Origin: Neckera pumila
Taxonomy: Eukaryota > Streptophyta > Bryopsida > Hypnales > Neckeraceae
Direction: 5' to 3'
Length of the DNA: 64,000 nt
Assembly: GCA_963969595.1 (NCBI GenBank)
Contig: OZ018417.1
Span: 4,838,501-4,902,500, forward strand
How positions within the stretch are numbered: the stretch's first letter is position 1; the number at the start of each line of letters is the position of its first letter. Below the pieces are notes generated by a model. That model was not told the DNA's origin. It did not search any database and saw only the letters and a list, made by a program, of their open reading frames with translations. Below are positions 19,470 through 40,628 of this stretch, one piece after another. The translations under genes and the position numbers were made by a program.

Positions 19470-19742
19470 AACCTTGACAAATGATCAGCATTAGTATGTT
19501 GTTTGCCAGGCTAAAAAATTACACCAAATTGAAATTCTTTCAATAGCAATATCCATTGTGCTAATTGGCTGCTCAACTTAGGTTTGTTTTTAACATATTT
19601 TAGGACATCATGATTGACATAGAAGATAAATTTATAACCCAATAGATAATGTTGGAATTTTTGGATAGCATAGACCATTCCTAAAGCTTCCATGCCATAT
19701 TTAACTACTTTTGGACTATTCAAAGTCCAGAATTTAAAATCT
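19470..19742 (-). pseudogene. Ty3/gypsy RNase H fragment
   Basis: The minus strand reads the retroelement RNase H pattern EALGMVYAIQKFQHYLLG, then FYVNHDVLKYV, then QLAQWILLLKEFQFGVIF, and ends at a PGKQHTNADHLSRL phrase. These are the hallmark residues that follow the reverse transcriptase of plant gypsy elements. Here RNase H would degrade the RNA strand of the cDNA hybrid. Neither reverse transcriptase nor integrase is adjacent, so it is a fragment, placed at the left edge of the palindrome-rich region. Confidence 0.8.
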
Positions 19743-19761
19743 CCCGATGCATGGTGTTAGA

Positions 19762-20627
19762 AAATACACCAGGAGATTTCTGTACACAATAATGTTTATT
19801 TTTGTGAAGGCGTTGGAAGGCTCCCGGGTGGTCCATTGACGCACAGCAATATGGATCTCAGGACATACATGAACTACAAATGTGAAGTACATAGCCTTTG
19901 AATGGCTGCGTGGTGTTTGTCAAAACATCAGGAGATATCCAGATACATTAGAGTTCATTTTGTTGAGGGTGTTCACATGCCCCAAGAGGTCAATGAGAGC
20001 CCATGAACATGCATCTCAGGATATACATAAAATGTAAATACGGATCAGTATATAGCCTGTGATGCATAATGGTAGGCATAACTTCGGGAGATATCCAGCT
20101 ACCTTGAAGTTCAAGCACCTAAGTGTACTGTGAAACCCCCGAGAGGTCAATTGCACTCAAACTTGTATGTCACGGACAATATGAACTTTGAATGATGCTC
20201 CAAGTTTGAATGCAGGTTCCAAAGGTGGCAAGTGAAGATGAATATTGACAACAGTAAGTGGCAATGAAAAAAAAGTCTTGCAACATTGTAGTAATCCCAC
20301 AGGAGATCAAGTACAAGAAAAGAAAGAATAGCAAAAGAAAAGAGCGTGGACATTTGCTACGACTACGACATGGGATTTGGAGGGTGCCCTCGAGGAATTA
20401 TAACAAGAACTGCACATTCTGATATTTTTTAATAAAATAAACCCATCCTAGTCACATCAGCTTCCACTGCCAACACTAGTAACTTCCGTAAAAGACATAG
20501 AGAACCATTTACCAAAGAAATGAACTATGCTATTATGAAGCCGAACAAAATAAACCATCGGGAGATATCCTGATAGCCCTGCCATGGTCACAGTGAACAA
20601 AGAAAAGCATCGGGGAATCTCCCGGTA
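19762..20627. repeat. Palindrome cluster 1, partly in a ~156 bp tandem duplication
   Basis: Degenerate copies lie near 19770, 19928, 20085, 20556 (CATCGGGAGATATCCTGATA) and 20608 (CATCGGGGAATCTCCCGGTA). Between about 19858 and 20165 two ~156 bp units (starting TCTCAGGAYATACAT) each carry one palindrome. This lies just downstream of the minus-strand gene. Confidence 0.7.
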
Positions 20628-20656
20628 GTCGTGGTGGACCACGAGACGTTAGTCGA

Positions 20657-23600
20657 TTAAAGGTCCACCTCGTTTGCCCTATTCAAATTCGCCTGGGCAG
20701 CCTCTCTGCTTTTCTTAGGAATAGTACGTGATTTTGGGTTCACTTTCTTGGACCAATTGGCGTACAATGCACAAGATGCATCCACCCAAGTGGGAGGCCT
20801 ATTCTCCACAACCCATTTCCCGTACCAACAATTCTGGTACATCAATTCCAAGTTACTTTTAGAATTATCTGGTCGCCAATACTGGAGCATGAACTTTCCA
20901 TTATTCTCATGCCCTTCTTCTCTGCAGACATTGGACAATGCTCTTCCTTGCTAGACAGCACATACTGAGGGGTCCTCAGATCTAAGCAGAACCCATGAAC
21001 ATGGTGGAATATCAACCCAAGGATTAAAGCTTTCCCTTGGCGCCTCATTTGCGGGTCCGCAATAAGGTTCAAATTCCTCTTCTTCTGAAACCATGTCGAC
21101 AGGGTTGATGGTTGGCCGCTAGCAAGCGGATTTCTACAACCTCCAATCGTACTTTGGCCAAAAGCCTTCCACCAATTCCGAAGGGCAGTCGGGAAGGGAC
21201 TCCTTGAGCTTTCGCAACACACGTTTCCAGTAATCGACGTACGGCGCAAAGGCGGCCGCAAACCCCTCGCATTTGGACATCCCGTTTCGCCAATATTCAA
21301 TGTACTTCTCGATTCCTAACAGAATCAAACCCTTGCTTAAGGTCGCTTTCCTTACTGCCTCCACTGCCTTCTCTTGATTTCCCGTGGCTTCCGCAACTTC
21401 GCTACCCCACATAGGCTTGAAAGAAATAGGCTTAGGGCAACCTCGAGGGAGTGTCGCACGACCCATGCGGTCTTTCTTCCATAGGCATCGAGAAGGTGTA
21501 TCTGATGGTAGCCACTGTGAATCTACTGCAGACTTTTTGTACTTCATGACGGGGATTCCATCACTATCCACGTAGAACCGGAAAAGGTGCATCTCCCCGA
21601 AAACCGATTAGTTTAGCCGTGCCACTGCACAGGTATCCCTTCACGAAGGACTTGAAATCCGCCACCTCTTGGATGAATTCGGGCATGAATGACAATTCTT
21701 GGGACTCCATGAACGACTTCATGAGGTCCGCGACAACAAATGTATTCTTGCTCTTTAAAGCCTTTGACAGGTGGCTAAAATATGCATCAATATCTTTGTG
21801 AGTATGTCCGACTAGAAGGAAACCGACCTGAATTTCCTTGAAGACTCCTCGCGCAGTAAGCAAAGACAAGAACGCCATGAGGTACTGGTTTTTGTTATCC
21901 TTGGCGGAGTTGTCAAGCTGAAAATAGAGTTTGCTAGGAAGGGGACTAGATCTACGCCGAACTTCCTGTGGAATCAATTTCAAGGCGTTCATACACCGAG
22001 ATTTCCCTTTGAGTAGCGCGTCGAAGATTGCATTTGCAGGCGGATAGGAAAAGAGGCCGCCCATCTCCCGAATTGGTGGACCTTCACGTCGCCTGAACAG
22101 TCTAGTCAACGATGAAATGGTGAAGTTTAAGTCGCTCGGCTCGTAGGCTGGTGCATAATGCGCATACGCACCATCGGCATGACCATAAGCCACCATTCCA
22201 GTTATACTTATGGGAAGCTGACCCAAACCTTGTGTAGCCTTCGTCGTCACCCACATTCTTGGAAGAGCCGTCTTCCTTGTATCCATCTTGTCATGAATAA
22301 TGCACAGTATCTCTTGAGGATTCCTCTTGGATTCCTCACGCCACAAAGCATACAGACGACGGCAGGATGCTTGATGATTAAGGTGTTCAGTTTGTTGCTT
22401 CATGAATTCCACAAAGTCCGAACTCCCTTTTGATGATTTCAGAATGAACTGCTGCAGTTCGTCGCATTTCGTACACTTCGCAAAAGAGCTACCAACAGGC
22501 TTAATCAAGACGTTGTTGAAGTGCTCTTTCTTTATTCTACTAACCGTTGCTTGGCTCACTAGAGGAAGGCCACACTCCACATTCAACTGCGATTTCCGAA
22601 AAACAGAAGCACAAGCCGCGGAGGCAGTAACACTATGAGAACTGATAAACAAATAGGAGCAAAGAGAACAGCAGCAATGAGGACAATTGATTACAGGGAT
22701 CAACAACGGGATATATCCCGCTGAAAAGATGACTGCATTCAAGTCCTACAACGAAATGTATGAAGAGGTTTTCAAATGAGAGAACCATCCAAATGAAGTA
22801 CGCATGGAGTACTGTGTCTTGGACATGTCCAACACAGGGAAAAAACTTAGTGAAGGCCTTATACAGTAGTTCAACGGGATATATCCCGTTGACGTAGCAG
22901 TCCGACAAATCCATCAATAATAAAAAACAACAGAAGGACAGTTCATGGAACTACCTCATTGGCATCAGCATGAACGTGCTTCTAGTTGTTCCCAACAGGC
23001 AGGAACTTAAGCGTGTCCACTCTCACCATTTCCAATGCACCGCATTTGGTGCGGCATCTGGTCAGCAGTGTTGTCGATGATCGCTTTCATTGTACCAGTG
23101 ACTTGCAGCGTTCGAAGTCGAGGCCGCTTAACCCCTTTGTTTCTGTGTGTAGATGAAAGAATGCCTTCCTTGTACTTGTCAATGTAATTGTGATAGGTCG
23201 ACTTCGGTATTCCGTGAATAATGTATCACGCTGTGGCACAGACTTCCACTTCTTCCAACGTAATGTACTTCCGCTTCCGTGTCTACTCCACAATATGCAA
23301 TTGTCCACCAACTGCAATACCATACTTTCGACGCTCTTCAAATGGTTTCGAGAAGTATTTCTTCCTGACCTTCAGCGATTTCTCACGCGGAAACAGTTGG
23401 CAGCAATGACTATCGCAGCAGTTCTGCAAGCTTATCTTCTGAATTTTGAAGTTCGTCGTCTTCCGCGTAAACTGTGTCTCCTTTTCATTGAGGGAGGGTT
23501 GATGAACTATGAAACAATAGGGTGCCTTCTGTCTTCCACCCAAATAGGCTAGGGGATCTAGTACATTATGGAAGGTGAAGAAGTGGTCGACTATATCCTT

Positions 23601-24236
23601 CAAGTACCGACCACTAGGGAACCAGCAATTGGAAAGGGACCACCGAGCATGGGTCATAATCGTGTTTGAGTTACCCACGAAAACGTCAAGGACTGTCACA
23701 CCTATGTAGCCTTCACCGAGGGTAGAACTCTGGAAATAATGATCCGCCCTCCAGCAAGTAATTCGACCTGACGATTGAAGAACACCGAAGGAATCTAGTT
23801 GATGCACCTCTAGGCCAATCCAATCTTCCTGAGGAATGAATGGGCTTCCATCCACATGCAGATCCGCAGTGACCTTAACCACGTCAGCTGCCCTCCACAA
23901 CATGGTTCTGTTTTGAACTTCTCCCAGCGTACTCAGACCTCTCTGGCAGGAAGAGACCCTAATATATTGAGCTTTTGGGACGACCAATGAAGGCCTTACG
24001 AGAACGAATACCCACGGCTCGACCAGGATCGGCACACCCAGCCACTTGCCATGAGGATGGGCCTCCACAACAGAACCCACTCTAACTTCTCCAAAATCCA
24101 GTAGGGAAAGCCTCACTACGTCACCATCGCGTAGCAGAGCTGTCCTTGCAGTAGATTCTTGAGAATCAGCGTCCCCGGCTGATTCTCCAGAATATGGAGT
24201 GATGGCATCATAAAATGAATTAGAGTACAAATCCAT
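20657..24236 (-). pseudogene. DDE/RNase H-like transposase-type protein (DUF7869-like), broken
   Basis: It starts at the ATG at 24236 (MDLYSNSFYDAITPYSGES). The N-terminal ~230 residues have a BAH-like or beta-rich look (LLRDGDVVRLSLLDFGEV, GVPILVEPWVFVLVRP). A putative helix-turn-helix lies near 23.2 kb (GIPKSTYHNYIDKYKEG). After an intron (about 22642-22954, holding two palindromes) comes the core: CIIHDKMDTRK, YFQLDNSAKDNKNQYLMAF, FLLVGHTHKDIDAYF. The three Asp-bearing motifs are spaced like a DDE/RNase H fold. A C-terminal WKRVL...GFWPKYDWRL region ends at 20657. There are premature stops (TAG near 23283, TGA near 23226) and frameshifts near 23045 and 21590. The DUF7869 link is from memory. 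Confidence 0.6.
22707..22890. repeat. Palindrome pair inside the transposase-like gene's intron
   Basis: CGGGATATATCCCG at 22707-22720 and the perfect 18 bp palindrome AACGGGATATATCCCGTT at 22873-22890. Both lie between the two coding exons, about 150 bp apart. Confidence 0.9.
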
Positions 24237-24631
24237 TGTCTCTGACGCACTGAATCCAGGAACCTTATAGTAGCAAAAATGTAATGAAGAGTGAACTTGG
24301 AGACGGAAATTCTAGAATATCAGTCTACATTGTAATTATGATTGGACTTCGATAGGGGAAGGAGATATGTTGATTTATCCCTTGACCTAGTTATATGTGA
24401 AGTTTGCGCCGTTGGCCGAGGTGGAGTGGGGTTGCACTACTACGTTACAAAAAGAAGAATGCATTAGAATACAAATGGAATATTGTCTTTCGGAATATGG
24501 AACTTGAGAACCCAACGATCTACGAGATCAAAAGGTCACATCACAGAACAATGTTATCTATCGGTTTGATGCAACGGTACATATTACCATGTACAATATC
24601 CACTGTTGACCAACTGAGATGTTTTCATGGA

Positions 24632-24800
24632 AACAGCGGGATATCTCCCACTGAGAACAATGGGATACCTCCCTTTGGGAACAACGGGATATCTCCCGCT
24701 GGGAGGAACAGGATAATTCCCGCTAGAAACAATGGGATATCTCCCGTTGAGATCAACGGATGACTTCTATCAATAAGTTCTTAACAGCGGGATATTTCTC
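24632..24800 (+). repeat. 24 bp tandem array of palindromes upstream of the transposase-like gene
   Basis: Five head-to-tail units of 24, 24, 24, 23 and 25 bp (AACARYGGGATATCTCCCGC then TGRG), and a sixth degenerate copy near 24786. They sit about 400 bp upstream of the ATG at 24236, in the presumed promoter region between the divergent genes. Since 24 is a multiple of three, the plus strand also reads as an 8-residue peptide repeat (NNGISPxx) in the ORF 24404-24763. I take that ORF as a by-product. Confidence 0.9.
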
Positions 24801-26450
24801 AATGTTTTGAACGACAGACAGGAGATTATCAACTGGCGTAGCTGCACGGATCCGGTATACAGCATTCACTACGTATTATAGTCTATACTCGTAGTCTACG
24901 GTCGTATACGGTACAAGAGGTAGACGACTACACTATTACGGCTTACGACTTCGTTGCTTTCGCCACTGACGGAATGACCAGGACCGTCCTACACTGAAGA
25001 AAACGACATTATAAACTGCCATTGCTAGCGGTATGCACAGCGCCGCTTACAGCACTGTGCCCAGTAAGCGGTTCTGCGCACATTCTGCACTACTTCGGCA
25101 TTGCAGGCACTTATCCTCTTTCATCAATTAGCACTCATGTGATACGCAACTAATGCTTAAGTATCAAACTCAAAGGACCTGATGTGTGGACAGTCAAATC
25201 ATTGTAGAAGGTGACCTTCCGGCCATTCTTCACTGCTGGTATCACTTGCCCGATCATTATTCCTTCACAACTTCTATATTGCCCTGAAAACACTGAACTG
25301 CTCATGAAAGTGGGAATCGCGGGTAACAAGATTTGAAGAATTCATACCTAGAGAGGAAATGCAAGACTACGACAGATCCGCAAGCTCCATACAATCCACG
25401 AGCGCTGCCAATTAACAAAAGATAGGTGTCCAAACTCCTCGACCGCCACTGCTCATTCACGTGCACCTGGGGAAAACAAGGAAAGTCGATTGGGGATTCA
25501 CGATATTGCTGGAGGTCCTATTTCCTGCTTTCACTTGGATAGGGTCCATCTGCATGTTCATTAACACATGCACTCTTCAAAGCTGTGCACCAATGTGTCA
25601 AGGTAGAATCTTAAGATGCGGTCGTGTTTGCGGAATGTTGACTGCGTTCTCGTTCGTCTCGAGTCCTTCAATGCAGAACTGTCGCGCCTAAGTTAATGTG
25701 CACGTAATTTGGGTCCTGGGAGATTTTCGAGGGGAAACGTGCGGCATTTGAATTCGAATCTAATTGGGATTCCAAAACCCTGCAGCATTCACTGCGGCTG
25801 TCAAGGACCCGTTGAAGCTCCAAGCTTGGCATTTCTCGGGAACGGGACTCAACATTTACCACTCTGACTGACATTCTTGTGTCTGTAATTGCATGCAGAC
25901 TACTCCTTTTTTTCCATTCATTTGATACAGTTCAATCGGATTTTTCATGCAAAGGAAATAATACTCAGGCTAGCAGGCTGAAGTGATCTTTCCGGTGCTG
26001 TCTTAAATAAACCGATTGCCTTTCTAACTTTGAAGATGCCGCACCCTGACATTTTCATTCCGGCAATACATCTGTTGTTTACATTTGTGGAGGTTGTTGG
26101 ATTCAGTAATCAATGCATTTCAACTTCAAATATTCGTAACAAATTCCACCAAGGTCAAAGACATATTAACGAACTTGCCTTACAGTCATGGCAATCCGAT
26201 TTGGAAAGTAAAAAATTTAACTGAGAACTGTTTTAAGGAATTATTCTTCCTCGACATCATTATAGACAAAAAGCTCTTACATGGTCGCTACAAGAGCAGA
26301 CTAACTTACTCAACCTGTTCAATTATACTAAACAAACAGATTATTGACTTCACAAAGCACATCCACTAGTCTTCATAGACATTCATAGGACAACATAGAG
26401 TTACCATACACTTAATTATTCCATGCCATGTGCCTTGCCTGCATTCAATG
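24800..26450. other. Presumed central non-coding region of the element
   Basis: No supported gene. Composition is balanced and unlike the AT-rich DNA to the right. Around 24850-24950 there are imperfect self-complementary stretches based on GTCTATACTCGTAGTCTACG and GTATACGG. A similar CGTATACGGCAC occurs near 32060, close to the other gene. These may be promoter or leader sequences. Confidence 0.4.
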
Positions 26451-26451
26451 C

Positions 26452-26495
26452 TAGGGTTTCAGGGTGTAGGGCTTAGGGTTAGGGTTCAGGATTTC
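26452..26495 (+). repeat. Degenerate telomere-like repeat, TTAGGG/TTTAGGG type
   Basis: A short run of GGGTTT, GGGCTTAGGGTTAGGGTTCAGG phrases. A second run is at 28049-28140. Probably interstitial or a microsatellite, not a chromosome end. Confidence 0.6.
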
Positions 26496-26703
26496 AAGAC
26501 TTCCAATTTAAGGTTCGGGTTTCTACATTCAGGTTCATTGAGTTCAATATTAAGGTTTTCTAACATATTCGGAACAACTGTAAACGTACTCTAGTTTAGG
26601 GTCAGTGGGTTTGTTTCACTTAATAATGTGAACTTCACTAATTTTTGGTTGCTACATGGCTTGGTGTGATTTCTATTAAACTAAAATCTTCAGTATCCCC
26701 TTC

Positions 26704-27169
26704 TAACATATTTAGTATCGACTTAGTGGGTGGGTGGGTGGTACAAAAGTTATAAGGAAGTTGAACATCTTTTGTTTGTCCATACATTTTACAATACCTA
26801 AAACCATACTTGTATTATAATTTATCTTTTTCAATATGTATAAAGAAAAATACATATATATCTTCTACCATACTTAGTAGAGGCTTAGTGGGTGGGTGGG
26901 TGGGCCAAAAAATAAAAAGAAGTTCAAAATCTTTTCTTTGTCCACATATTTTACAATACCTAAAACCATGGTATTGTAATTTATCTTTTATAATACCTAT
27001 GAAGACAAATATCTATATATTCTAACATACTTAGCATAGGCTTAGTAGGTGGGTGGGTGGGTGGGACAAAAAATAAAAGGAAGTTCAAAATCTTTTCTTA
27101 GTTTGTCCATACATTTTACAGTACCTAAAACCATGGTATTATAATTTATCTTTTATAATACCTATGAAG

Positions 27170-27213
<44 letters not shown>

Positions 27214-27377
27214 TAACATACTTAGCATAGGCTTAGTAGGTGGGTGGGTGGGTGGGACAAAAAATAAAAGGAAGTTGAAAATCTTTTCTTTGTCCATACA
27301 TTTTACAGTATCTAAAACCATAGTATTAGAATTTATCTTTTTCAATATCTATAAAGACAAATATTTATATTCGTTTA
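26704..27377 (+). repeat. Tandem repeat, four units of ~160-190 bp
   Basis: The units begin near 26704, 26868, 27025 and 27214. Each has TAGYAYAGGCTTAGTRGGTGGG, a (GGTG)n run, ACAAAAAATAAAAGGAAGTT, TTTGTCCATACATTTTACA, CCTAAAACCAT and TTATCTTTT. The third unit carries an expanded (AT)n run at 27174-27211. Minus-strand and plus-strand ORFs over the array are repeat translations. Confidence 0.9.
27174..27211. repeat. (AT)n microsatellite
   Basis: About 19 AT dinucleotides, inside the third unit of the tandem repeat. Confidence 0.95.
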
Positions 27378-27443
27378 TAGAGATGACCGGCATGTAACTC
27401 CATTTTATTATTCTTTTCCTTCTTCATAAGTTTTAAACTTTTG

Positions 27444-27992
27444 TTAACCCTTAAAAGCCCAAGGGGTTTGGACAAAATACAAATGTGTTATAAAATATAA
27501 GTTCTAAAACTTTTTTGAAGCTTGCATTAAAGAAGATAATGTAAAGCAGAAAAAGTAGAAAGCATCCGTACGGTCAAATTTATAAAATTATTTTTAGATT
27601 TATCTAAAATGAATTTTGAAGATATAACTTCAAAAATTCATCAAAAATACAATTTTTGTTTTTAGCATTTGAATTTTTTTTTTATTGGTCAAATTGTGTT
27701 TTTTATTGATTTGTGAAAAAATGCATGAGATCTAGTAATGAGAACACCAATACTTTCCCCAAATAGTACATTTTTCAACACTACACAAATCTAGACACTT
27801 TGTGCTATTTCCCTTTTAATTTTTGTTTGACCGTAGCGATCTGAGTTTTGAATATGTATATTGCTAAACAACCCAATCTTTTGAAGAAAAAAATAAAAAG
27901 AATTTGAAAAAAATAAAAATTTTGCTTAGAAATTTGGGCTAAAGTTGGGCTACGACCATAAAATGGTCACTCGAGCGCTTACTAGGGGTTAA
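27444..27992. mobile_element. Possible TTAA-flanked non-autonomous element, short family
   Basis: A 549 bp interval beginning TTAACCCTTAAAAGCCC and ending GCTTACTAGGGGTTAA. The ends are inverted and TTAA-flanked as in the ~930 bp family, but the interior does not clearly align with it. It may be a relative or a deleted derivative. Confidence 0.5.
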
Positions 27993-28048
27993 GAAAATTG
28001 TCTCCAAATTTTTGTTAATTATCCAAATCAAAAAAAGGGTTTACGGTC

Positions 28049-28140
28049 AGTGCTTAGGATTTAGGGTTTAGGGATAGGGATCAGGTTTAGGATTTAGGGT
28101 TAGGGTTGAGGGTTGAGGGTTTTGGTGGTTTAGGGTTTCC
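28049..28140 (+). repeat. Degenerate telomere-like repeat
   Basis: TTTAGGG, TTAGGG, GAGGG and AGGGTTT phrases in irregular order. Confidence 0.7.
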
Positions 28141-29740
28141 AAAATCTGGTTCCAGGAATTGAAGATTAAGGTTGCTGAGCATTCTGCAACTACTATACAC
28201 ATACTCGGGTCTTTTGTTTGGTTTAATGTATTATAAACAACTTTTAGTCGAAAGCATTTGAGGAGCCACGTTTCTTTCTAAGCATTTGAGAAGCCACGTT
28301 TCTTTTCTAATGGTGACTGCACATATTTTCTTTATTAAGTATTTTCTTTATTTCATTTATGAACTTCAAAAAACATGTTATAGTTTTCCAATGTTCAAGG
28401 ATGCATTTCAATCATTCTTCTACCTCCTTAATGATCAAAGTAAGGATTCTGTTAAATCTGAGATCATTTTGTTGTTGTATACATTGAGGAGGGCTATTAT
28501 TAGATAATGTGAGCACTTCTATGATTTATTGTAGTATTTAATTTTTATAAGTGTTTGAATCTCCTATGTAACTTTTTTTTATGTAGTAAATTATTGGATT
28601 GTACTTCTCCAATCTGTTTTGGAAGAAGTGCAAGAATGCAGAAGGATTCATTGGTACTACCTTTTCAAAAATGAAATTTGTTTTCTCATATTTGTTGAAT
28701 ATCCTTCATATATAATCGAGGACATTCACATTGATTAAATGATTTTATTTAAATGTGAACATTATGCTTCATATGTAGCTAGATTAAATATAATTAGATT
28801 TTACTCCATTGTACATAATTATTCGGGAACCCTCATGTTCATGAAATTCAATAATGTATTTAGCAATGATGAATTCAAGTGAATAGGACCATCTCCATCA
28901 TTTGGAGCCTACATTTAAATAATTATATGATGTACAATTCACATCAAGAACTAATAGCCAAAAAGTAACCAATGTTGTACATCTTCAATTTTCCATTTCA
29001 AAATACAATCATAAAATTTCATACATAATATGATTATGTCATTCTTACATGCCCATATCATAGCATATGATGCCCTATGAAAATATTAGTTTTCCGATAT
29101 TGGAGGCCCATATCATAGCATATGATGCTCTATTACTATATACTATGTCATGGAGTCTGATAGCCTATGATGCAAAAGAATCGAGTACACAAATAAAGTT
29201 CTTCTAAATTGATTTACGATCCCACAGAAAAAGAGTTATGGTGAAGTGCACCCTAAACCACACAGTAGAAGGAAGTCCATTGTATAGTTATGCCTTCGTA
29301 GCTAAGTTCTAGAATTGAAGGTGCCTTGCGTCAATAATGGGAAAAAAATTGAAGGTCCTAAATGATTCTAATTTGCTTTCCAATAGCCAGTGAGTCTACC
29401 ACTTGTCCCATAATAATGTATTTTATTTTCAAATTATTGAAGTCATTTTGACAATATTTTAGTTTAGTAGTGCCCCATATTTTGAACCAAACCCAAAACC
29501 AAATCCTTGATAATTGAGGAAATGAAAATTGAATGTGGAATTTCTAAGGGAATGATGGAATTCCTAAATGAATGATTAAACCCTCTATGTCCTTTTTTTT
29601 TTCAACTTCGCCAAATGTGCTATAAATTGAACCCTAAACTAATATTTGGATAAGTTGTAAAAAAAGTATGGTACAATAATCCAAAATCCAGTTCGGGCGG
29701 GCAACATAAGAAATTCGTTTAAAGTGAATTTAAAATTTTT
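28141..29740. other. AT-rich DNA with two short duplications
   Basis: A 28 bp tandem duplication (AAGCATTTGAGRAGCCACG then TTTCTT) lies at 28252-28307. The phrase CCATATCATAGCATATGATG is duplicated at 29052 and 29107. The ORF 28286-28507 has a tail (SVKSEIILLLYTLRRAIIR) that looks like a helical gene fragment, but I cannot identify it. Confidence 0.45.
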
Positions 29741-30250
29741 TGAATTAGCCTTCTAGAAGATAACGTTTTTGTGTACAAGAAAGCCTTGATGCATTGCATT
29801 TTCATTAAATATGACAGAGGAAGTTCTGGGTTTTTTTTTGGCCATCTAAACATGTTTTAGAAAAAAATAACTTGTACAGTTCATTTTTGAATGCAATCCA
29901 TATTACAGTTTTTCAACAAATAATTCATGATTTTGTCCAATTTGCTTAGTAGAACAATCTCACCGTTGCAATTACGTTGATTCAATTCCATCTTAGAGTT
30001 ATTAATGATATATTTTTTAATTTACTGAATCTTGGACATACCTTTAATAAATCCTTTCTTGGAGGATGGAAACGATGTGATTTTTCCCTACATTTTTGGT
30101 TCCACATTCAAAACTCAATTCCAAAGCATATGAAAAGTTGTCAATGCAGAAGTTAGTTGAAGTGCAAGAATTTGAAGTTAAGAACATTTAAAGTGAAGAA
30201 CAGTAGTGAGTCATTGAAGGTGGTAGGAAACTTATTTTCTTCACCTAAAC
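29740..30250 (-). mobile_element. Partial ~930 bp TTAA-family element, reverse, copy H
   Basis: Aligns in order with part of copy F: ATAACTTGTACAGTTCATTTTT, then GAACAATCTCACCGTTG, then CAATTCCATCTTAGAGTTAT. No clean left terminus is seen. Confidence 0.55.
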
Positions 30251-30254
30251 CCTC

Positions 30255-30847
30255 CAGAAGACCAAGTGCGGTTTTGGTCAAAATCATTCCGATAAACCTG
30301 CCATGTCTATAGCAAAGAAAGAAAAACTTAAAAAATTATTTTTTGGGCAATCTAACCATAGGATCTAATACTAGACTTGTAACTATAAGAATGTGTCAAT
30401 GAATTCTTAGAAACTTGACCCCATGCATTGCAAGACCTTAATTTTCATTAAATGTGCAGAATTCAAGTTCTTTTGCAACTCACTTGTAATGATTAAATTT
30501 TTTGGCTTTGAATGTCTTTAACTAAACATTTTTGCACTATTGATTTTGATTTTCTAACTGTTTTAGTTGAATTGTTGGTGGGAACTAATTGGAAAAAGAA
30601 TTTGAAGTGAAAAACACTTAATTTTCATTCTAAATGCGCAATGTTCACCCTTGCACAAAATTTGAAGTCAGAAAATTAAAAATATGCTTTTTGTACCCAA
30701 TGCTTGTTGATGCTGAAAGTAGACTTCCAAAATGAGTATCCCAAAAATACGAAGTAATAAGTTAGAGCAGCGGAGTTGCTAGATTTTAATTGAACTCTTT
30801 AAAATTTTGAACATCCACATTGGGTGCCTTGGGCATTTAGGGGTTAA
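30255..30847 (+). mobile_element. Partial ~930 bp TTAA-family element, forward, copy I
   Basis: It has the forward family blocks (TCTATAGCAAAGAAAGAAAA, TCTAACCATAGGATCTAATAC, GCATTGCAAGACCTT) and ends CATTTAGGGGTTAA at 30844-30847. It is shorter than full length. It faces copy H, giving a decayed inverted pair. Confidence 0.6.
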
Positions 30848-30959
30848 GGGGTGTGGGAAAATTGATGAATTGCCCCCCTAACTTATTTGAAGGTAACTTA
30901 CCCCCCTTGCAGTAATTTCAATATATTACCACTCCTTGCATAGGAAGTGGGGATCCAAT

Positions 30960-32380
30960 TCATCATGACCCCATCTCGCTGCGGGTCAAGTCATCCCTTG
31001 CCTGTCAGATTGGTAATCACAGTGGATGGCGCGCCATGATGGCCAAGTTCCTGACCTGGGGCTACGTGCCTCTCCCGCTAAACCGCTTGTTCATCCCGTT
31101 GCACTCACTGGTCAGCGTCCTCCTCCGCAGGCTCTCTCCCTTTGGTAATCGTCTTCCTCCACGAAGCGCTTCCTCGTTTTCTCCTGTTGCAACAAGCGGC
31201 CCGCTGGAAATCGTTGAGTTTGTTGCTTAAATTGCGGGACTTGGGAGAGGAGACCCTGGCGTCTAGTTCGTCATTTCCGCGCGTTTCCGTGGCTTCGAGG
31301 GAGACGTTGGAGTTGCAGCTGTTTGGTTCGCTCGGAGGGAAGCATCGTGATTGAGTTTGCACCAGAGGTCCACGCTGCAAGGACACGGTAGGGTTTTCCA
31401 TCTCCTGCTCTGGATTTTTTTCTCTTGTCAAGTTTCCAAGTTGGATCCGTTTGATCGAATGAACCCTAACAAATAATCCGAAAGTCTGCTTAGTCACTTG
31501 TTTCTCAAAATGAGCTTGAGAATAGCGACAAGAATTATAGGTGATGCTCTTATCTAGATTAAGAGAGAATACTTTAGGTATGAAGTAGATTCAGACAGTG
31601 TAGACAGAAGACGCTCAACCTCCCGTGTTGGTCATTGCGGCGTGGATTGTGGTCTGTTTTTTTGAGGGACGGAATTTCTATCAGTTTCAGTCGTCTTTGC
31701 GATGAGCTTGAAGCTGCACTATCTGGCTGAATTTCTGCGCTGTGGATATTACATATTTACAATTGAGGAAGTTTGTGTTCATTTGGTCTTTGATTTATGA
31801 GAATATCGATTCCGTGCTTGCTGCGAGGGTCTCCATTGTGCCATTTCCGGGTGTCTTGCTTCTTCCGGATCTCAGAGCTCGTTGCGGAGCTTGCTTTCCG
31901 AAAGCAGAGAGGTTGTGCTGTGCCCGGTCATTGGATTTTGTGAGGGCGTCTACTAGTTGGCTTAGTGGTTGGACGTGTGTTAAAAAAGCACTTTGAACTG
32001 CGCAGGAATTACAGAGGCGGGAGGTCATTGTCGACGAGTAGCACCGTATCGTCGACGTATACGGCACAAGCACACCATCATGGCTACATCATCGGCAGTC
32101 GAAGTCACACCAGCATTCTGGAATGACCCGTAAGATTGCAGTCCCCTGAAGTTCTGGATTTTTGTGGTTGTTTGTATTAGATAGAAAGTCAGTATGCTAA
32201 GCATTGTAGTCCAGTTTGCACGGAGAAATTTCAAAATGCCCTATAGCTGCGTAGGACCGGACAATGCCTTCGGTGGGAACACCGGAGACACTTGCAGGTG
32301 CAAACCCGGAGTCCTAATTTCATCGTGATTAATCCCGATAAAGACCTGGAGTACAACTAAAATAGTGGTTAATGATATGA
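30960..32380. promoter_or_regulatory. GC-richer upstream region of the plus-strand element gene
   Basis: GC content rises sharply at about 30960, and CpG-containing sites appear (for example GGCGCGCC near 31028). Small ORFs occur on both strands here, none with a recognisable domain. Position and composition suggest the promoter, 5' leader and possibly upstream exons of the gene that is clearly coding from 33051. Exact exons cannot be set from sequence alone. Confidence 0.4.
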
Positions 32381-32382
32381 CT

Positions 32383-33005
32383 ATCGGGAGATTGCCCGAT
32401 AGTTTTGCAGTACACATAGTACAACAAAGCAATCGGGAACGAAACAAAGTGGTTTTAGTTGAACAGAAAACGAATAAACGGACAAAGAAACAGCGGGAGA
32501 TCTCCCGAAAAAATTGGAAAAAATAATAGAGTTTCGACCGAGATGCTGACACCGCGTTCAAAAGATGAAAGCGCTTCCTTGTGCAAACCATAGACAGCAC
32601 ATGAAATTGGCATCGGGGTATATCCCGATGTCTAACAGGGCATAACATGAATAACGTGGAGAGAAGATCAGCGGGATTTCTCAAAATGCTCTTGTTCGAA
32701 CATGACTGGTAAGAGAACTCAGGAAGGATTGCGTGAATAATGTCGATAGGAGTCGTATGCACTGGGGACTGAGGACGATCCGGTCAGACACGAATCCAAC
32801 GGGAGATCTCTCGATGATTTGAAGCATAAGTAATGATCAGTGCAATAGCAGAGGAGAAAACATTAGAATATGCAAGGTGTTGCTTATGCCGGCACCTACT
32901 GGACATACTCATTGGGAGAACTCCCGCTGAATATGGTAGACGGCCTAAATTAAGGAGCGATGTAGAGCAGGACAGCATTGACGTTCAACGGGAATAATCC
33001 CGATG
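32383..33005. repeat. Palindrome cluster 2, upstream of the plus-strand gene
   Basis: At least seven copies. They include ATCGGGAGATTGCCCGAT (32383), the perfect CGGGAGATCTCCCG (32494), CATCGGGGTATATCCCGATG (32611), a degenerate copy near 32670, CAACGGGAGATCTCTCGATG (32798), ATTGGGAGAACTCCCGCT (32911) and CAACGGGAATAATCCCGATG (32986). They stop just before the coding region. Confidence 0.9.
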
Positions 33006-34451
33006 AAAACTCAGAGGACAGGATATGAGGTGGACTTCTGACCATTGTGCATGGCATTGCGCAGAGAAAATACATCGATCGACCTGCCTGCAGACTTGTC
33101 ACCCATCAGGCTGTACAAGTTTATCGACTCAGTGGTGCACACGTTCCAGTACATCGGCGAGAGCAATCCAGGAGCTGTGTTTCGATGCAACCAGAAAGTT
33201 ACAGCGTGGGGCCTTCAGTGGATGGACCAGGTCGGAGGTGTTGCAATCATATGCCCTAGGCTCTCGTTTGAAGGCAAGGCTCACGCCACGACAGGCTTAG
33301 ACGTCGTGGAGCTTCAAGGGCTAGATAACTCTACTGCCCTCAACATTTTTCGAGAGATGGTTCCCAAGAAGCAGGAAGCACGGACCTACGGCCTCATCCT
33401 TGACTATGCCACCATGGATCTCCAGATGTGTGAGTCTATGACAATAAAGGGATTTCTAGACAAGCCAGTCGGATCTCATTCCTGGACACCAGCGAAGATG
33501 TCCAATGAATGGGTCGTTATAGACGACAACCTTGGCGAGTCCAATACGGACATAGTACCAGTCGTTGCTACTGCATCAACGCCTTCTACCCCAAAGAAGC
33601 AGAGGAAGAGGAAAGCCATAGCGGGTGGGCCAGGAGATGATATTGTGGAGGAAGTAGAGGAGAAGGGCAGGGGTAAGAAGAAAAAAAAGGCCACCCCACT
33701 GACTATTGCGCAGGCAATCAAAATGACAGACGCTGAGGTCAGCAAGCTCAAGCCCAGTGAAATAAAGGAGATCAACAAGTTGTACAACCAGGTTTTCAAG
33801 CCAATGTACAGATGGGACAAGAAGCCACTAGCCAATGCGAAGGGGGAACTCCTACAGGTGCACTACAAGTTCCTCCACAGGGCAAAAGCCGGGGATCTCG
33901 CATACAGAGCTATTGACCAGGATCGGCTCAAAGGGATTAAGAATAAGGTTCTTGTGGACAACGACTTCCACTCTGAGAACCGGTATATAACCGTCTTGCC
34001 CTTGAAGAAAGGACCATACGGGCCGAATAATCTAGTAGAGTTCTGAGACACGTGTCCGAGGAAGGAGAGTCTGACCACCAAATCCCACTACTACATTATT
34101 GGTGGTCAGCACACTGTTGGAGCGCACAAAGAGTTGATCGAGAAGAAACATATCACTGAGGCAGATAAGGCCGACGCTTCCACGTTCAACATCATTCCTA
34201 TATGGGCGTTGCATGAAACAAAGAAGAATGATATCGTTCACCTTTCGAGAGCTCTCAACCAGAACATCGCTGGTGAACAAAAGGAGCAGAGATTTGCACA
34301 ACAGCTTGCTCACGCTTGTGTGAAGTGGAAAGATATGGGGTCCCCGCACCTGTCATACAGAGGACAAGCGCACTCAGCAGCGTACATTGTAAGTTTTATT
34401 GAACTTACGCCCGAGTTATGCTCGTACATCGTTTTTTTCCTTCCTAGAAAT

Positions 34452-34646
34452 CAGCGGGAGATATCCCGATGACTGTCCACAGCGGGACATATCCCACTGT
34501 CGACAGGATCAGAGTATTATTCCTACTAGGCGGGAGAGATACAGATGTTATGAAAATGCACTGATCTCTCGCTGGCATTCAACGGGAATTATCCCATTCT
34601 TCACAGCATAGCCCCGAATCAATCCAGCAACGGGATTTATCCCGAT
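34452..34646. repeat. Palindrome cluster 3, inside intron 1 of the plus-strand gene
   Basis: Four copies within about 200 bp: CAGCGGGAGATATCCCGATG (34452), CAGCGGGACATATCCCACTG (34480), CAACGGGAATTATCCCATTC (34580) and CAACGGGATTTATCCCGATG (34628). The intron runs from the GTAAGT donor at 34389 to the TGTGCAG acceptor ending at 34720. Confidence 0.9.
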
Positions 34647-36774
34647 GAAGAATACTTTCATTGTCTTCTAATTTAGCATTTATCCCCAATGTAACTTGCA
34701 TTGTCGGCACTCATGTGCAGGGATTCTATAATGTGATGTCCTCAATCTTCAATGGGTTCAAGAATGCCGACAACCCGGATTTGAAAATCCCGCTACTCTT
34801 CCTGGAGAAGGATGAAGACTTCAACCGCTGGATTCAGATTGACAAGGACTTTCTGGCCAGAAAGCTTCCTGACGGGAACGAACCAAAATCAAAGGGTGTC
34901 CGTAAGGCGCTGGCATACACCGAATTCAAGCCTTTCTGGGGATTGCAAGATGAGGACTTGAACTACTTGGCTAGCCAGGTGGAGCAGGGAGTGGTGTGCA
35001 TGAAGAAAACGGCTATAAACCTCGATTTTGGGGGAACGCCGGTCACTCCAGTGGCAGCGGGTCGGGAGAAGAAGGTGAGGGCCATGAAGAACAAGCTCAT
35101 GTGCCACTACAAGCAGTTTCCGCTTCCGAGCAAGAAGCCAGAGTACTCTCCCTACCCAGTAGAAGAATGGGAAGAGTTTGTGGCTGCGAAGAAGATTACC
35201 CGGGAGCAAGTCGAGTGGTGGACGGATAAGAGCATGGCGACGGAGCTGGGCAAGGCGTGGCTAGAGGGTCGTACGAAGGCCCTGAACAAGACACACAATC
35301 CAAGCAACTGTCTAGAGGCGGTAAAGAAGATGTAGGAGATCTTCATGAATGCGCATACAGAGGAGATCCAGGAATATGTTGCCAAGGACTTCGGAAGCGA
35401 CTATCTGTGCAAGGTCATGGACGAGAAATGCTGGGACATCAGCAAGATTTTGGCAAAAGATTTCGTAAAGGCATGGCGAGGTAAAGCGAAGACTCACATG
35501 TATTTCTGGTTTCTCTTTGAAATGACCAGTCGCGGTGCTCGTGCTAAATTCCTGGAGAACCGGAATCTGAACCGCGTATTCGATGCCATGGAGTACAAGG
35601 ATACCGATCGACGCCTTGTGAGAGCCCGTTCACCAGCAGTACTTATAACGGATGGTGCTGGATTTCATGCAATTCAAACACACTTGGAGAGGCGGTAGCA
35701 GGACATGAAAGTCCGGCTCTGGGATTGGCATGTAATTCATTACATTCCGGAGAAAGCGGATGGCTTCCCCCCTCCAGTGACAAGATCGCATTTCACTGTG
35801 TAGTTGGTCTTGCTCTTTGCCTACGACGAAGTCCACGGTCCAACGAGTAGCTTCCACAATTTCTTCAGGAGTGCAATCGAGATGTCTGCTGTGTATTTCT
35901 CGAGAGATTTGGACGAAGTGGACAAGTTGTATAGGCGGTCGAATATGCCTTGGTTTTCCATTGCCGCGGCGATGGAAATTTTCCGTAACCACATGACCGA
36001 CAACATGGTCATTGTTAATGTGAACGGCGGTCCGGAAATTACTTCTCTTGCAATGGTAAGCCCTAATTCATTCTCTTTCCCATTATTTTTTGGAACTCAA
36101 TCAATTTCTAGTGCATTGACATTTGCTTCTACAATGCTGTCAGGTCTCCTCGAATAAGGTTATCGAAGTCGTTTATGACTCCGAATCAGAGTCCGAGGCA
36201 ATTTTGGTCGCCCGGCAGATTTGGGAGCAATTGCATAATGCTCAATTCCTTTGTGAGGAGAATGAGGACGAAGAAGAAGAGGAGGGTGGGGGAGAGGAGG
36301 GTGGAGGAGAGGAGGGTGGTAGAGACGGCGACGAGGAAGAGGAAGAGGGACGAGGAAGAGGAAGAGGGACGAGAGGGCGACGGAGAAGAAGAAGAAAGAC
36401 GAGGAGAGGGCGAAGAGGGAGGGGGAGAGGCTGGAGGAGTTGGCGACGATGCTGACATTGTTCCTTCGGATCACCGCCTGACTTCACAAAGTGAACAGGG
36501 AGACGAAGTCGTCGCCGCCGCAGAGGAGGGTGATTCCTCTCATCTGGGAATGCAGGACGATTCTCTACACCACCAGACTATAGGAACGGACACGGGACGT
36601 CAAGACAACGCTTCGAACAAGGAAGACAGTACCTCCCGCATAGAGAGTGATCATGACAATGAGGAAATTCAAACTCCTACTCCTCTGATCACCGCAAGTA
36701 CCCCTCACGCCGAGGAGGACATGGAGAATGACAAAGAAACTAGTCCAGGCAGAAAGGTCAGTCATTGTACCTAA

Positions 36775-37366
36775 TCATCGGGATATTTCCCCCTACCAGT
36801 TCGCATTGCGCATAATCATCTGCTGAGGAAATCCTACGTGTTCTAATCGCAGGATGAGATTGCATGGAGACGGACGCCACGTTCAGCGGAGAAGATAGGC
36901 ACGGTAGGGCGGAGGATGGCCTCAAGGTCAACACTCATTGAGGTCGAGTCAGGTCCGCGCAATGAGTTGAGGACGAAGATGACTAGATATCAGCCTCCCT
37001 CGTGATGACCCTTCGGTTAATCGGCCACAGGCCCCTCAGCAGCCTGCAAGGAATGAAGGCCCCAGCCTCTCCTCCCCTACACCGTCCGGAGCAAAGGTTT
37101 CTTTGACGGGGACTCCTGAAGCGACAAACACTGTGTCCATTCTTTTTACCGTTGCAATATAGGGAGGAGCTGCATCTGTGAAGGATACAATCGTTGACAT
37201 AGTTCCCCCCACAGCAGAGTCTTCACATGACGTACCTTCGAGGCCGGAGCAGTGCGTCGGTGCAGCGAGAGATCTCCCGATCCTGGGTGATCATGCTTCT
37301 TTTCCTGGACCTCGGCATTTGAAGAGGAAGGAGCCGATTACTGATGCAACGGGAGATATCCCATTG
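36775..37366. repeat. Palindrome copies, one in an intron, two in coding sequence
   Basis: A degenerate copy at 36775 lies in the intron between 36756 and 36853. Copies at 37264 (GAGAGATCTCCCGAT) and 37347 (CAACGGGAGATATCCCATTG) lie within an open frame, where the latter reads TGDIPL. They are the exceptions to the non-coding bias. Confidence 0.8.
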
Positions 37367-38519
37367 CCTGAGACACCTGTTGTTCCACCGTTCGCGGAAA
37401 TGGCGGATACAATGGCGGACCTCACGCAAATGAGTCCGGATGCGGCTGAATCGAAGGTGAATCCAATGATTGTTGTCCCACACCCGGGACGTACGCATGC
37501 TGACATGGTTTCCTTGAAGAGTAGGGTTAAGGATTTTTTGAATTTGCCAGCTTTTCATGCTAGACAGACGCGCCATTTGGCGAATAATAGCAGGTCCAAG
37601 TTTCCGGCCGTCTGGGAGGCGCACTCATTTCTTTATCGCAACATTTTTCAGATAGCCTCTGACAGTGGACCGGTGGAAACAGAAAAAAGGACCGAAGGAC
37701 ACGGGGGTCGAAGGAGTGCGAAAGTCGGGGAAGCACAACGGGCGAGGAAGGAAGAAGCCGTTGTGAGAGGTACTTCATGTGACACCTTTTGTATTTCTAA
37801 GGGTTTCATTGAAGTTCCTTTTGCTTTTTCATGGACTTGTCTCTAACTGGGCTTTGCCGTACTTGTCTTCAGATTGTGGTGGACCTTCAACGACGCAACC
37901 AAGCACATTGGAAAAGGTAGCTCGGCGAAAGTATTCTGTGGTCCTTGACTTGAATGGAGTGCTTCTTCACAGGTCATACAAGCGTAATAATCCCCATGTT
38001 GAGCGTCGCCCGGGTGTCACCACGTTTCTTTAATTGGTTGCGCTATAGAGCAGATGTTGCATTCTGGAGTAGTGTTACTCCAAAGAACATGGACAATTTG
38101 TTGGACATTGTCCTCGCGGATTGTTCCTTTGGCCGTCGAGATGTCATTTGTCTTCGTCAAGGGGCATGCATAAAGTCCACGTACAGGGCCCCGTCTGCAC
38201 CCAATCAGCTGATCTTCCTGAAAGATCTGACGACATTTGCGAACATGGCCAGTTTGTCCATGTTGGATAACATTCTTCTCATTGACAACAGTCCAGAAAA
38301 GAACATCTTGAACAATGCTTATAACGCTGTTTTCCTCAGTCCTTTCGCAGTGAGCTGCTCGACAACTATCTCTGCATGCAGTTGATGCCGTGGCTTGATG
38401 GCCTCCTTCTTTCGAATGAGGCGGTGCCGGTGTATGTGAAGGCAAATCCCCTTCTACGCGGGCAAAATGCAGTGGATCAAGAATCCACATTGGGCTGGGG
38501 AATCATTACCGGAATTTAG

Positions 38520-39513
38520 CGTCGTTGATTCCTGTTGGCATGGGGCTTCATCGAGATATTTCCCATTGCTGGAGACGACAGTTTCTTGGAATGATGTTTC
38601 ATAATCGTCTGATTACAAATTGTAATTTTAATTCTAAATGCTGTTGTAAATTCTTGATCGGACATTTCTCTGAACCTGTAATTGTCAAATAGTCAATGCA
38701 TTAGCAAATATGGATCATGATTGAAGTGATGCTTCTTGACAATTCATTGCATATGCACACTCAAGTTGTTCCTTCATGGTTCCTTGTTTACACACAACAT
38801 GAATTCTATGTGAGCTGTGATCCCGTATTTGCTTTTCAATTATTGGTCACATACATAATTTTTTAGCTTCCCTGTCAATTTTTAGGTGTCCCGGTATTCC
38901 TTGGCAAGGACTCGCGACCATGATTGTACTTGTAGCTTGTAGTTCAGATGCAAGATAATTATTGCATCTCATGCTTGTTGAGTTTCATCTATCTTAAGTT
39001 ACCGCATTACAAATTCGTAGGCACACTTCCATGTCGTCGATATCCACTTTGTATATAGTAATGTAAGAGTGTAATTCTACTATATTGGGAGATCTCCCGT
39101 TGGGCAGGGGTTCTCCGTCAAGTTCTGTGTCCATTTGAATCTCTTGAGATCTACCATTTACAAGATCTGCGTAATGTGAGTGTCCCTTTTAAGCTTATTG
39201 GGAGATCTTTTGTTGTTTAGTGGTTCTCAGTGAAGTGACTACCCATTCTTAATTCAATGGGAGATCATTACTTGTTTACTTCTTTTCAGTGTAGTGATTG
39301 TTCGTAATAAATCATAGGGATACCTCTCATTGTTTACTGGCTCTAAGTGAAGTGACTATCCATTCTAAATTCATCGGGATACCTCCCGTTCTTTGAAGGT
39401 TCTCAATATAGTGAGTCCCCTTTGGAATAACATCGGGAAATCTCTTGTTCTTTAGAAATTTTGTCCTCCTCTGTCTGCCAAGTTAACTTCCTTGCTATGT
39501 TCTGATTGTGCAG
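38520..39513. repeat. Palindrome cluster 4 in ~60 bp tandem units
   Basis: No coding sequence is seen. Between 39084 and 39445 about six units of roughly 57-64 bp each carry one palindrome copy, then GTTCTC/GGCTCT and AGTGAAGTGAC. Examples are TTGGGAGATCTCCCGTTG (39085) and CATCGGGATACCTCCCGTTC (39378). An outlying degenerate copy is near 38550. Confidence 0.85.
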
Positions 39514-39996
39514 AAGGCGGCTGTCGTTGTTCTTACAGGTGATTTATGCGTGGAGGGTGGTGTTTTGGATCTTCCGGAAATATTCGACGTTCCCTCTGGT
39601 TTCCATGACTTCCTTAGTCAGTTGGTTGAACGGGCTCACTGTGGGTTGTATTCCTCCATGCATTTGTCTACTTTGGAGGTGCTTATACGGCGTCTTCTCC
39701 CGCAAAAGACTTGGAAAGGATTTCATTTTTTTGCCAGTTCCAAAATTCCTAACAAGAATAATCCTTATCCACACCATGGGGCATTACTAAGCCGGATCTT
39801 AGGTAGCCCTAGACTACGCAACATTTTTTTGGATCAAACTATTGCAGTACTTCAGATAGATCCTCTTGAATGGCCACGTTCTCATTTGATGGGTCCCTCT
39901 GTAGACATGAGGGATGATATTGATCTCTTGAAATTAGAAGATCCATGGTATGTACGGAAGCAGCTACTTATAGTTGGGAATTCTGTTACGCATTAG
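39514..39996 (+). pseudogene. HAD/FCP1-like exon of the element, incomplete
   Basis: An open exon after a TTGTGCAG acceptor, ending at TAG 39994. It reads KAAVVVLTGDLCVEGGV, then FDVPSGFHDFLSQLVER, GLYSSMHLSTLEVLIRRLLP, and a C-terminal PRSHLMGPSVDMRDDIDLL. The order of a receptor-like VPSGFHDFL and a GLYSSM segment resembles the FCP1/NIF HAD fold (RPGL.eFL ... vWSSm...nL). The catalytic DxDxT strand is not seen and may be in a missing upstream exon or lost. It may be a third gene of the element or a captured host fragment. Confidence 0.4.
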
Positions 39997-40339
39997 TTAA
40001 GTTCAATAATTTAGATACTATAGGGATTGCCTTTCTTTCTTTTCGTGGGCAACTTTTTGATTGTGACCTTCTTTATCAGTATTAATAAAATGTGGTGACC
40101 CTTCTTCACCTTTTCTTTACTTTCAAGTTCCATTCCACCGTGCCAACAATCCTCTTGTACCGTAAGTTTGAATGCGGGAATTACACCAAGAGAATTCCGG
40201 ATCCTTATTCTGCAGGGAGATACTAATGGGTTAGACAGTGCTTGCTTACTAGTCTTTGTAATAATCTAAGTTGAATTATATTTGTTTTCATTGTTTTCTT
40301 GCAACACTTTAGATCCCAAAGTCTGGGATATGCACTACA

Positions 40340-40524
40340 GCGGCAACTTTCCCGATGAATCTTCTCTACTGTTAGGTAGAATTAATGTACTATGGGTGAA
40401 ATATCTTAGTTATTATGTTTCTTTGTCCTCTTCTTGGCTATGAACATGGTCTACTTCATTCTAATCTGCCCACTTTCATAGGCGTTGCGGTCTTAAAAAC
40501 CAATACAACGGGAGCTCTCCCAAT
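40340..40524. repeat. Rightmost palindrome copies
   Basis: A degenerate copy near 40350 (CGGCAACTTTCCCGATG) and CAACGGGAGCTCTCCCAATG at 40505-40524. I see none further right, so these mark the apparent right limit of the candidate element. Confidence 0.75.
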
Positions 40525-40628
40525 GTAGTCTCCCAGGACATAGTCTAAAATTACTCCTAAAGTCCAAAAGTAGTTAAATATGGCATTTCCCTTTATGTAG
40601 TAGTATAATTATTCTTTGCAGGGATTAA

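Follow-up and report, generated by a model that had tools for sequence, protein, structure and literature searches.

In Arabidopsis, VANDAL transposons carry dense motifs in their non-coding DNA that are bound by the VANC protein, which removes methylation; expansion and divergence of these motifs proceed through tandem repeats, according to the available parts of the published accounts (PMC5735166, PMC10398659). A second system is Sola1-1_Ec32, a 21.5 kb Sola-1 element of Ectocarpus in which a ParB-like and DNA methyltransferase-type gene lies opposite the transposase; its authors, citing similar algal proteins, suggested that proteins of this kind might bind the transposon encoding them and modify it (PMC12477816). 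In the part of that account available, no target site is given for the ParB-methyltransferase proteins of giant transposons and the string 'palindrom' is absent from the main text, and among the matches listed in the ParB literature only this work was judged relevant. Here, we describe a 20.9 kb DNA transposon of the moss Neckera pumila, found in a window of 64,000 nucleotides (contig OZ018417.1, positions 4,838,501 to 4,902,500; C10:4838501-4902500 in the genome scans), whose non-coding DNA is studded with one 20-bp palindrome. The element carries a DUF7869 transposase gene and a divergent accessory gene. We see an even chance that the palindromes are cis-acting sites for an element-encoded dimeric DNA-binding protein, the best candidate being the ParB-fold/methyltransferase-like accessory protein.

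The palindrome-bearing block is one DNA transposon, delimited in window coordinates by its terminal inverted repeats (TIRs) and target-site duplication (TSD):

19692..40586, unstranded: giant TIR DNA transposon, window copy (W), with perfect 26-bp inverted repeats at its two ends, TSD TTCC and related copies with the same ends
19692..19717, plus strand: left TIR, perfect 26-bp match to the right end
40561..40586, minus strand: right TIR, perfect 26-bp match to the left end
19688..19691 (left copy) and 40587-40590 (right copy), unstranded: TSD TTCC, read directly

Genome-wide scans (339.5 Mb, 18 contigs) at up to three mismatches yielded 642 forward and 604 reverse TIR matches (1,246 together), compared with none for the reversed control. 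Where the list of perfect TIRs placed two ends roughly one copy length apart, we picked six full-length relatives (E1-E6, 19.9-20.7 kb, at loci L036-L053) and the subfamily copies S1 (L060-061) and S2 (L062-063), of 18.5-18.9 kb. W and E1-E6 diverge pairwise by 3.2-7.5%, and identity to W in the aligned blocks of S1/S2 is 71-87%. An exact 4-bp TSD, read by eye, was found in six of the seven full-length copies, namely W and E1-E5 (TTCC for W; ATGG, GACT, ATTG, CTAA and TTGT), whereas that of E6 is inexact.

An iterated 20-bp position weight matrix (PWM) identified 35 non-overlapping palindromes with the core CANCGGGANATNTCCCGNTG at a score >12 in the window, all in 19926-40525. This agrees with the initial annotation, which had claimed more than 30 copies of a ~20-bp palindrome confined to a 21-kb block. 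At the laxer score >6, 38 sites were found, again with none outside 19.7-40.6 kb; per 64 kb, the Markov null gives 0.6 sites for the >12 cutoff and 5.4 for >6. The sites and their arrays, all unstranded, are:

Palindrome starts 1-12 (PWM >12): 19926, 20082, 20556, 20608, 22704, 22872, 24634, 24658, 24682, 24706, 24730, 24785
Palindrome starts 13-24 (PWM >12): 32321, 32382, 32491, 32611, 32669, 32797, 32910, 32986, 34452, 34480, 34580, 34628
Palindrome starts 25-35 (PWM >12): 36776, 37263, 37347, 38549, 39083, 39196, 39313, 39372, 39431, 40338, 40506
19748..20113: subterminal ~156-bp units with degenerate sites (family D7)
24634..24749: 24-bp-unit palindrome tandem array, close to the 5' end of the transposase gene
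34452..34647: four palindromes in what is presumably the intron separating accessory exons 1 and 2
39313..39450: palindrome array at 59-bp spacing

All three tandem arrays described at the outset, with 24-bp, 59-bp and ~156-bp units, were thus recovered. Their existence would suit a passive spread, in which a small functionless sequence was duplicated by slippage or template switching. This explanation seems improbable, as the site flanks share almost nothing past 20 bp, the sites lie mostly outside open reading frames (ORFs), and half-site arrays are also present on miniature inverted-repeat transposable elements (MITEs). The placement of the sites in non-coding DNA of two divergent genes, also part of the initial annotation, was borne out by their depletion in ORF stretches, with intervals drawn by hand: 4 of the 35 lie inside, compared with 39.5% of bases (p = 4e-4). 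Two of these four are at ORF ends taken as running into introns, and the other two are in a linker ORF whose ratio of nonsynonymous to synonymous divergence (dN/dS; this and dS were computed between W and S1/S2) is 0.91-0.97.

The palindrome is a mark of the whole transposon family, rarely found outside it, and is not unique to the window copy. E1-E6 contain 34, 36, 32, 35, 35 and 36 sites, respectively, and S1 and S2 contain 33 each, while the ~500 bp fetched on either side of these copies contain none. At 30 TIR-end loci, several of which belong to the same copies and five of which are MITEs, a full site is present within the inner 1.5 kb in 29 cases and within the outer 1.5 kb in none. The strict pattern CAACGGGANATNTCCCGYTG matched 168 + 164 times on the two strands of the genome, perfect palindromes being scored on both, and the reversed control 0 times. 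The genome scan and co-occurrence check proposed in the initial annotation gave a clear association with the TIR family: among the matches listed on C1-C3 (67 strict sites, with the perfect TIRs listed), 63 of 67 sites have an inward-facing perfect TIR within 22 kb, against 0.9% of random points, and 66 of 67 within 35 kb, against 1.7%. The four listed sites beyond 22 kb are all on C2. A search for relatives among viral contigs returned 42 pattern matches and no relative among them.

This distribution also bears on the idea that a host transcription or chromatin factor binds the palindrome and that the element has accumulated its site. Transposons are known to collect host binding sites, and the palindromes here lie in introns of both genes and upstream of them. 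Nevertheless, with 66 of the 67 listed strict sites near a TIR, almost none of the listed sites is left for host genes, and the plant E2F octamer, the sole host site thought similar, occurs in 0 of the 35 palindromes, so that an E2F-type site was rejected. We therefore regard a host factor as unlikely.

The architecture of the site was analyzed using 148 unique palindrome instances out of 243 in seven related copies. Positions 3/18 and 9/12 of the consensus are variable, and the central A10-T11 is mostly retained. The initial annotation had described conserved arms around a variable centre; this holds for 9/12, but not for the mostly kept A10-T11, and 3/18 varies as well. Complementary arm pairs are within 5 of the expectation under independence at seven of the ten pairs. 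Slight excesses were observed at 10/11 (107 versus 99.6 expected) and 9/12 (55 versus 50.9), together with a deficit at 3/18 (38 versus 48.8) and 107 versus 111.5 at 6/15. Beyond 20 bp, the information is near background, the top outside value over all 35 sites being 0.37 bits at position -2; when one site per cluster was used (n = 14), positions -2 and -4 reached 0.63 and 0.49 bits. Nearly independent half-sites and information limited to 20 bp suggest two like DNA-protein half-sites instead of a hairpin, and the palindrome thus has the signature of a symmetric protein site.

RNA hairpins or DNA cruciforms could in principle produce the same symmetry, since the sites are palindromic and a perfect palindrome with two substitutions, CATCGTGAGATCTCACGATG, is present in some MITEs. 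However, the compensatory-change test put forward earlier to separate RNA or cruciform from protein revealed no clear compensatory change, which falls on the protein side. In addition, no Rfam match at gathering score was obtained in the block, and the sites occur in both opposite-strand genes and in intergenic DNA. A hairpin or cruciform is thus very improbable. Combined, the 20-bp limit, the independent half-sites, the co-occurrence with TIRs and the core constraint between subfamilies described below uphold the dimeric-protein site suggested in the initial annotation.

Among the recent copies E1-E6, purifying selection on the sites was looked for and not found: the motif columns vary no less than flank columns of matching base class, so the shared site positions of these copies reflect common descent. 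This lack of excess conservation is the second point in favor of passive spread. Between subfamilies, with sites chosen in W, the core divergence from S1 and S2 is 12.3% and 12.7%, compared with 24% in the near flank (p = 9e-9 and 3e-8). Most of this constraint comes from C/G positions, A/T positions alone not being significant (p = 0.06 and 0.10). A/T bases at the four variable positions are 49-51% diverged versus 22-23% in the flank, and C/G bases 25-27% versus 26%.

Because choosing sites in W could alone lower the core divergence, the choice was reversed and a neutral simulation was run. When S1 or S2 supplied the sites, the core divergence was 12.9% and 12.1% versus 26% in the near flank, and W likewise scored >12 at 27 of 28 and 26 of 28 aligned sites. 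The neutral simulation with the same site selection predicts 21.5-22.7% (standard deviation 1.9%), and none of 2000 runs was at or below the observed value with either assumed ancestor. The site cores are therefore constrained between subfamilies, diverging half as fast as their flanks beyond ascertainment bias; passive spread would require divergence equal to neutral, which was not seen. At position 9 of the half-site, the 70 half-sites of W have G 29 times and T 29 times, and the 66 of S1/S2 have G 46 times and T 7 times (nominal p = 8e-4, the sites not being fully independent). Many sites thus changed alike at this position, as has been described for VANC targets, whose motifs evolved synchronously. 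A preference that differs between subfamilies of one genome would also be odd for a constant host protein.

Complete small elements with the same TIRs and half-site arrays account for 5 of the 30 TIR-end loci:

L006 1501-1767: MITE
L009 1501-1747: MITE
L012 1249-1526: MITE
L023 1501-1767: MITE
L034 1501-1726: MITE

These MITEs of 226-278 bp have an exact 4-bp TSD in three of five cases. A full palindrome scoring >12 is present in four, and the fifth peaks at 10.7. Each holds 4-7 half-sites (score >7) versus 0.2-0.5 in Markov shuffles, with 0 of 200 shuffles reaching the observed number, and 12 of 19 same-strand half-site intervals are 20-22 bp. The five resemble one another and are hence not five independent tests. 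That the minimal mobile unit consists of TIR and half-site array favors a function in cis, in mobility or in protection. The symmetric variant CATCGTGAGATCTCACGATG, carried by a MITE, was found at 30 genome places with up to one mismatch (7 exact, control 0). It was also considered as the mark of a second autonomous family; with only 30 scattered places, this was rejected, and the variant is more likely a MITE family.

These derivatives are central to the main rival explanation, a role in transposition only, whereby a transposase or TnpA-like cofactor would bind subterminal and internal copies and join the ends, the internal ones having arisen secondarily as arrays were duplicated. The half-sites or palindromes located 48-76 bp inside each end of W, together with the arrays in all five complete MITEs, are as expected for a cis requirement of mobility. 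Against this, the distance to the closer end is 3-9 kb for many sites, which are situated in presumed introns and in the DNA separating the two divergent genes; 28 of them can be aligned with the ~20%-diverged S1 and have constrained cores. Pure end synapsis has no need of such sites. A transposition-only role thus appears possible, but rather unlikely.

The genes of the element comprise the following parts:

20640..22700, minus strand: transposase gene, DUF7869 exon region, with several broken ORFs in W; PF25273; dN/dS 0.12-0.13
23283..24311, minus strand: transposase gene, N-terminal exon region, an ORF; the 463-amino-acid ORF is intact in copy E1; dN/dS 0.18 versus S1/S2
33042..34472, plus strand: accessory exon 1, predicted ParB/sulfiredoxin-fold domain (AlphaFold 2 model, VIA-align); dN/dS 0.12-0.13
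34715..36105, plus strand: accessory exon 2, predicted methyltransferase-fold domain, broken in W; dN/dS 0.19
37900..38520, plus strand: accessory NIF/HAD phosphatase-like exon, frame broken in W; PF03031; dN/dS 0.29-0.30
39530..39996, plus strand: accessory gene, last conserved ORF; dN/dS 0.56-0.57

The PF25273 match in the DUF7869 exon has an E-value of 5e-38 in W and 7e-43 in E1. In accessory exon 1 of W, a stop codon breaks the ORF and the last stretch is taken as intron. The product of this exon is predicted to adopt a ParB/sulfiredoxin fold: the top 21 VIA-align rows for the AlphaFold 2 model of copy E5 are ParB, Noc, KorB, PadC and sulfiredoxin proteins plus Atu1540, both this and the methyltransferase-like assignment being based on shallow alignments. 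Searches of the two exons against Pfam, NCBIfam, PHROG and PDB sequences gave nothing above threshold; one weak PHROG ParB match was taken as a hint, and a weak PDB match to BefA (E 0.022) was not credited. The dN/dS of exon 1 demonstrates, at the codon level, purifying selection on the putative ParB-fold protein.

Canonical ParB carries a GxRR motif for binding of cytidine triphosphate (CTP). This motif was not found in the ParB-fold exon, where the stretch reads IIGGQHTVEA; G353 and H356 are invariant, and G354, Q355 and T357 nearly so, in 18 sequences. N6A/N4C methyltransferases have a catalytic (D/N/S)PP(Y/F/W) motif and an FxGxG motif that binds S-adenosylmethionine. Exon 2 lacks both canonical motifs; placed by eye, TD[GAC]xGF is present in 6 of 6 aligned sequences, and NV[NK]GGP in the five of these six that extend to it. 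The phosphatase-like exon matches PF03031 at E 3e-14 in E1 (L036 2562-3320, minus strand), and this NIF/FCP-type exon has DLNG in place of the usual DxDx(T/V) motif. Between subfamilies, dS spans a roughly threefold range (0.67-0.68 for the ParB exon, 0.35-0.36 for the DUF7869 exon and 0.21-0.22 for the last ORF), a spread suggestive of exchange between them.

For a role of this accessory protein as the dimeric binder, the following mechanism may be envisaged. The ParB-fold protein would bind the palindromes and coat introns, promoters and ends, so that the element would stay accessible against host CG/CHG methylation in a VANC-like manner, and/or would bring the element to the transposase, which would explain the sites retained on MITEs. 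When W and E1-E6 are compared, the number of singleton transitions per site is 0.28 for CG, 0.25 for CHG, 0.10 for CHH and 0.02 for A/T, and the CG/CHG transition decay is likely a trace of land-plant-type cytosine methylation of the family. Each half-site, read directly, holds CG, CHG and CHH cytosines, so the predicted binding could be methylation-sensitive. A more specific form, ParB-parS-like anti-silencing, is proposed only tentatively and is itself rather doubtful: the ParB-fold protein, its methyltransferase module being catalytically dead, would load on the dozens of parS-like palindromes of its ~20-kb element and spread from there, so that element and MITEs would be shielded from CG/CHG methylation, and protein and site would co-evolve between subfamilies.

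For the Sola superfamily, a 4-bp TSD and size ranges including some elements >15 kb are given in the available part of one account (PMC10741241). The present element has a 4-bp TSD, perfect 26-bp TIRs and a size of 20.9 kb, and is Sola-type, a name that follows these features and not a match of the transposase sequence. Its DUF7869 transposase, examined for the DDD signature of Sola, shows D and DN/H motifs. Literature searches found no paper on DUF7869 and nothing combining giant transposons, terminal inverted repeats and a moss genome. The intergenic part of the element (31% GC) contains a tandem array of ~162-191-bp units at 26700-27370 and a degenerate, telomere-like AGGGTTT array at 28036-28138. 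Outside the element, ORFs 6045-6530 and 16652-18201 (minus strand) resemble pieces of other transposon genes, the former reading by eye like a DDE endonuclease.

VANDALs are Mutator-like elements (MULEs), whereas here no MULE transposase was found, DUF7869 being the only match in the transposase-side ORFs scanned, and the TSD is 4 bp. As far as the available parts of the VANDAL accounts go, the two systems share one short dense motif in introns and upstream DNA of one transposon family, its multiplication and divergence via tandem repeats with spectra differing between related families, and an accessory gene beside the transposase, whose DNA-binding role is predicted here. In these same parts, the VANC21 motif is the 9-bp YAGTATTAY in one orientation, in contrast to the 20-bp palindrome found here. 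The candidate protein has a predicted ParB fold and is likened to VANC by description, not by sequence. If the proposed role is true, the VANC-type strategy of sequence-specific transposon self-recognition would have a second origin, unrelated to the first.

CACTA/En-Spm elements have subterminal TnpA sites, CACTA termini and a 3-bp TSD; a literature search on TnpA, Spm, demethylation and subterminal sites together found nothing. Like them, the present family keeps repeated element-specific sites on deletion derivatives too, but it differs in its ends (ATGCCATATTTAAC...), 4-bp TSD, DUF7869 transposase and sites throughout the interior.

Bacterial ParB-parS pairs a ParB-fold protein with repeated palindromic sites in the DNA acted on, and the element likewise combines a predicted ParB-fold protein with palindromes repeated in its presumed target DNA. 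It differs in that the genes matched do not include ParA and the canonical CTP motif is absent, in the dozens of sites that each element carries, and in its setting, a eukaryotic nucleus. Sola1-1_Ec32, as described in the available part of its account, shares the size of ~21 kb and a transposase with an opposite-strand ParB-like/methyltransferase-type gene (PMC12477816). Its domain is predicted to make N4-methylcytosine or N6-methyladenine, unlike the domain here without DPPY- and FxGxG-type motifs, and that part makes no mention of an NIF phosphatase exon such as the one present here. To this type of element, the Neckera pumila family adds a concrete candidate site, a single palindrome present ~35 times per element and also on ~250-bp MITEs, and, if the proposed binding is true, ParB-parS-like logic would operate inside a nucleus.

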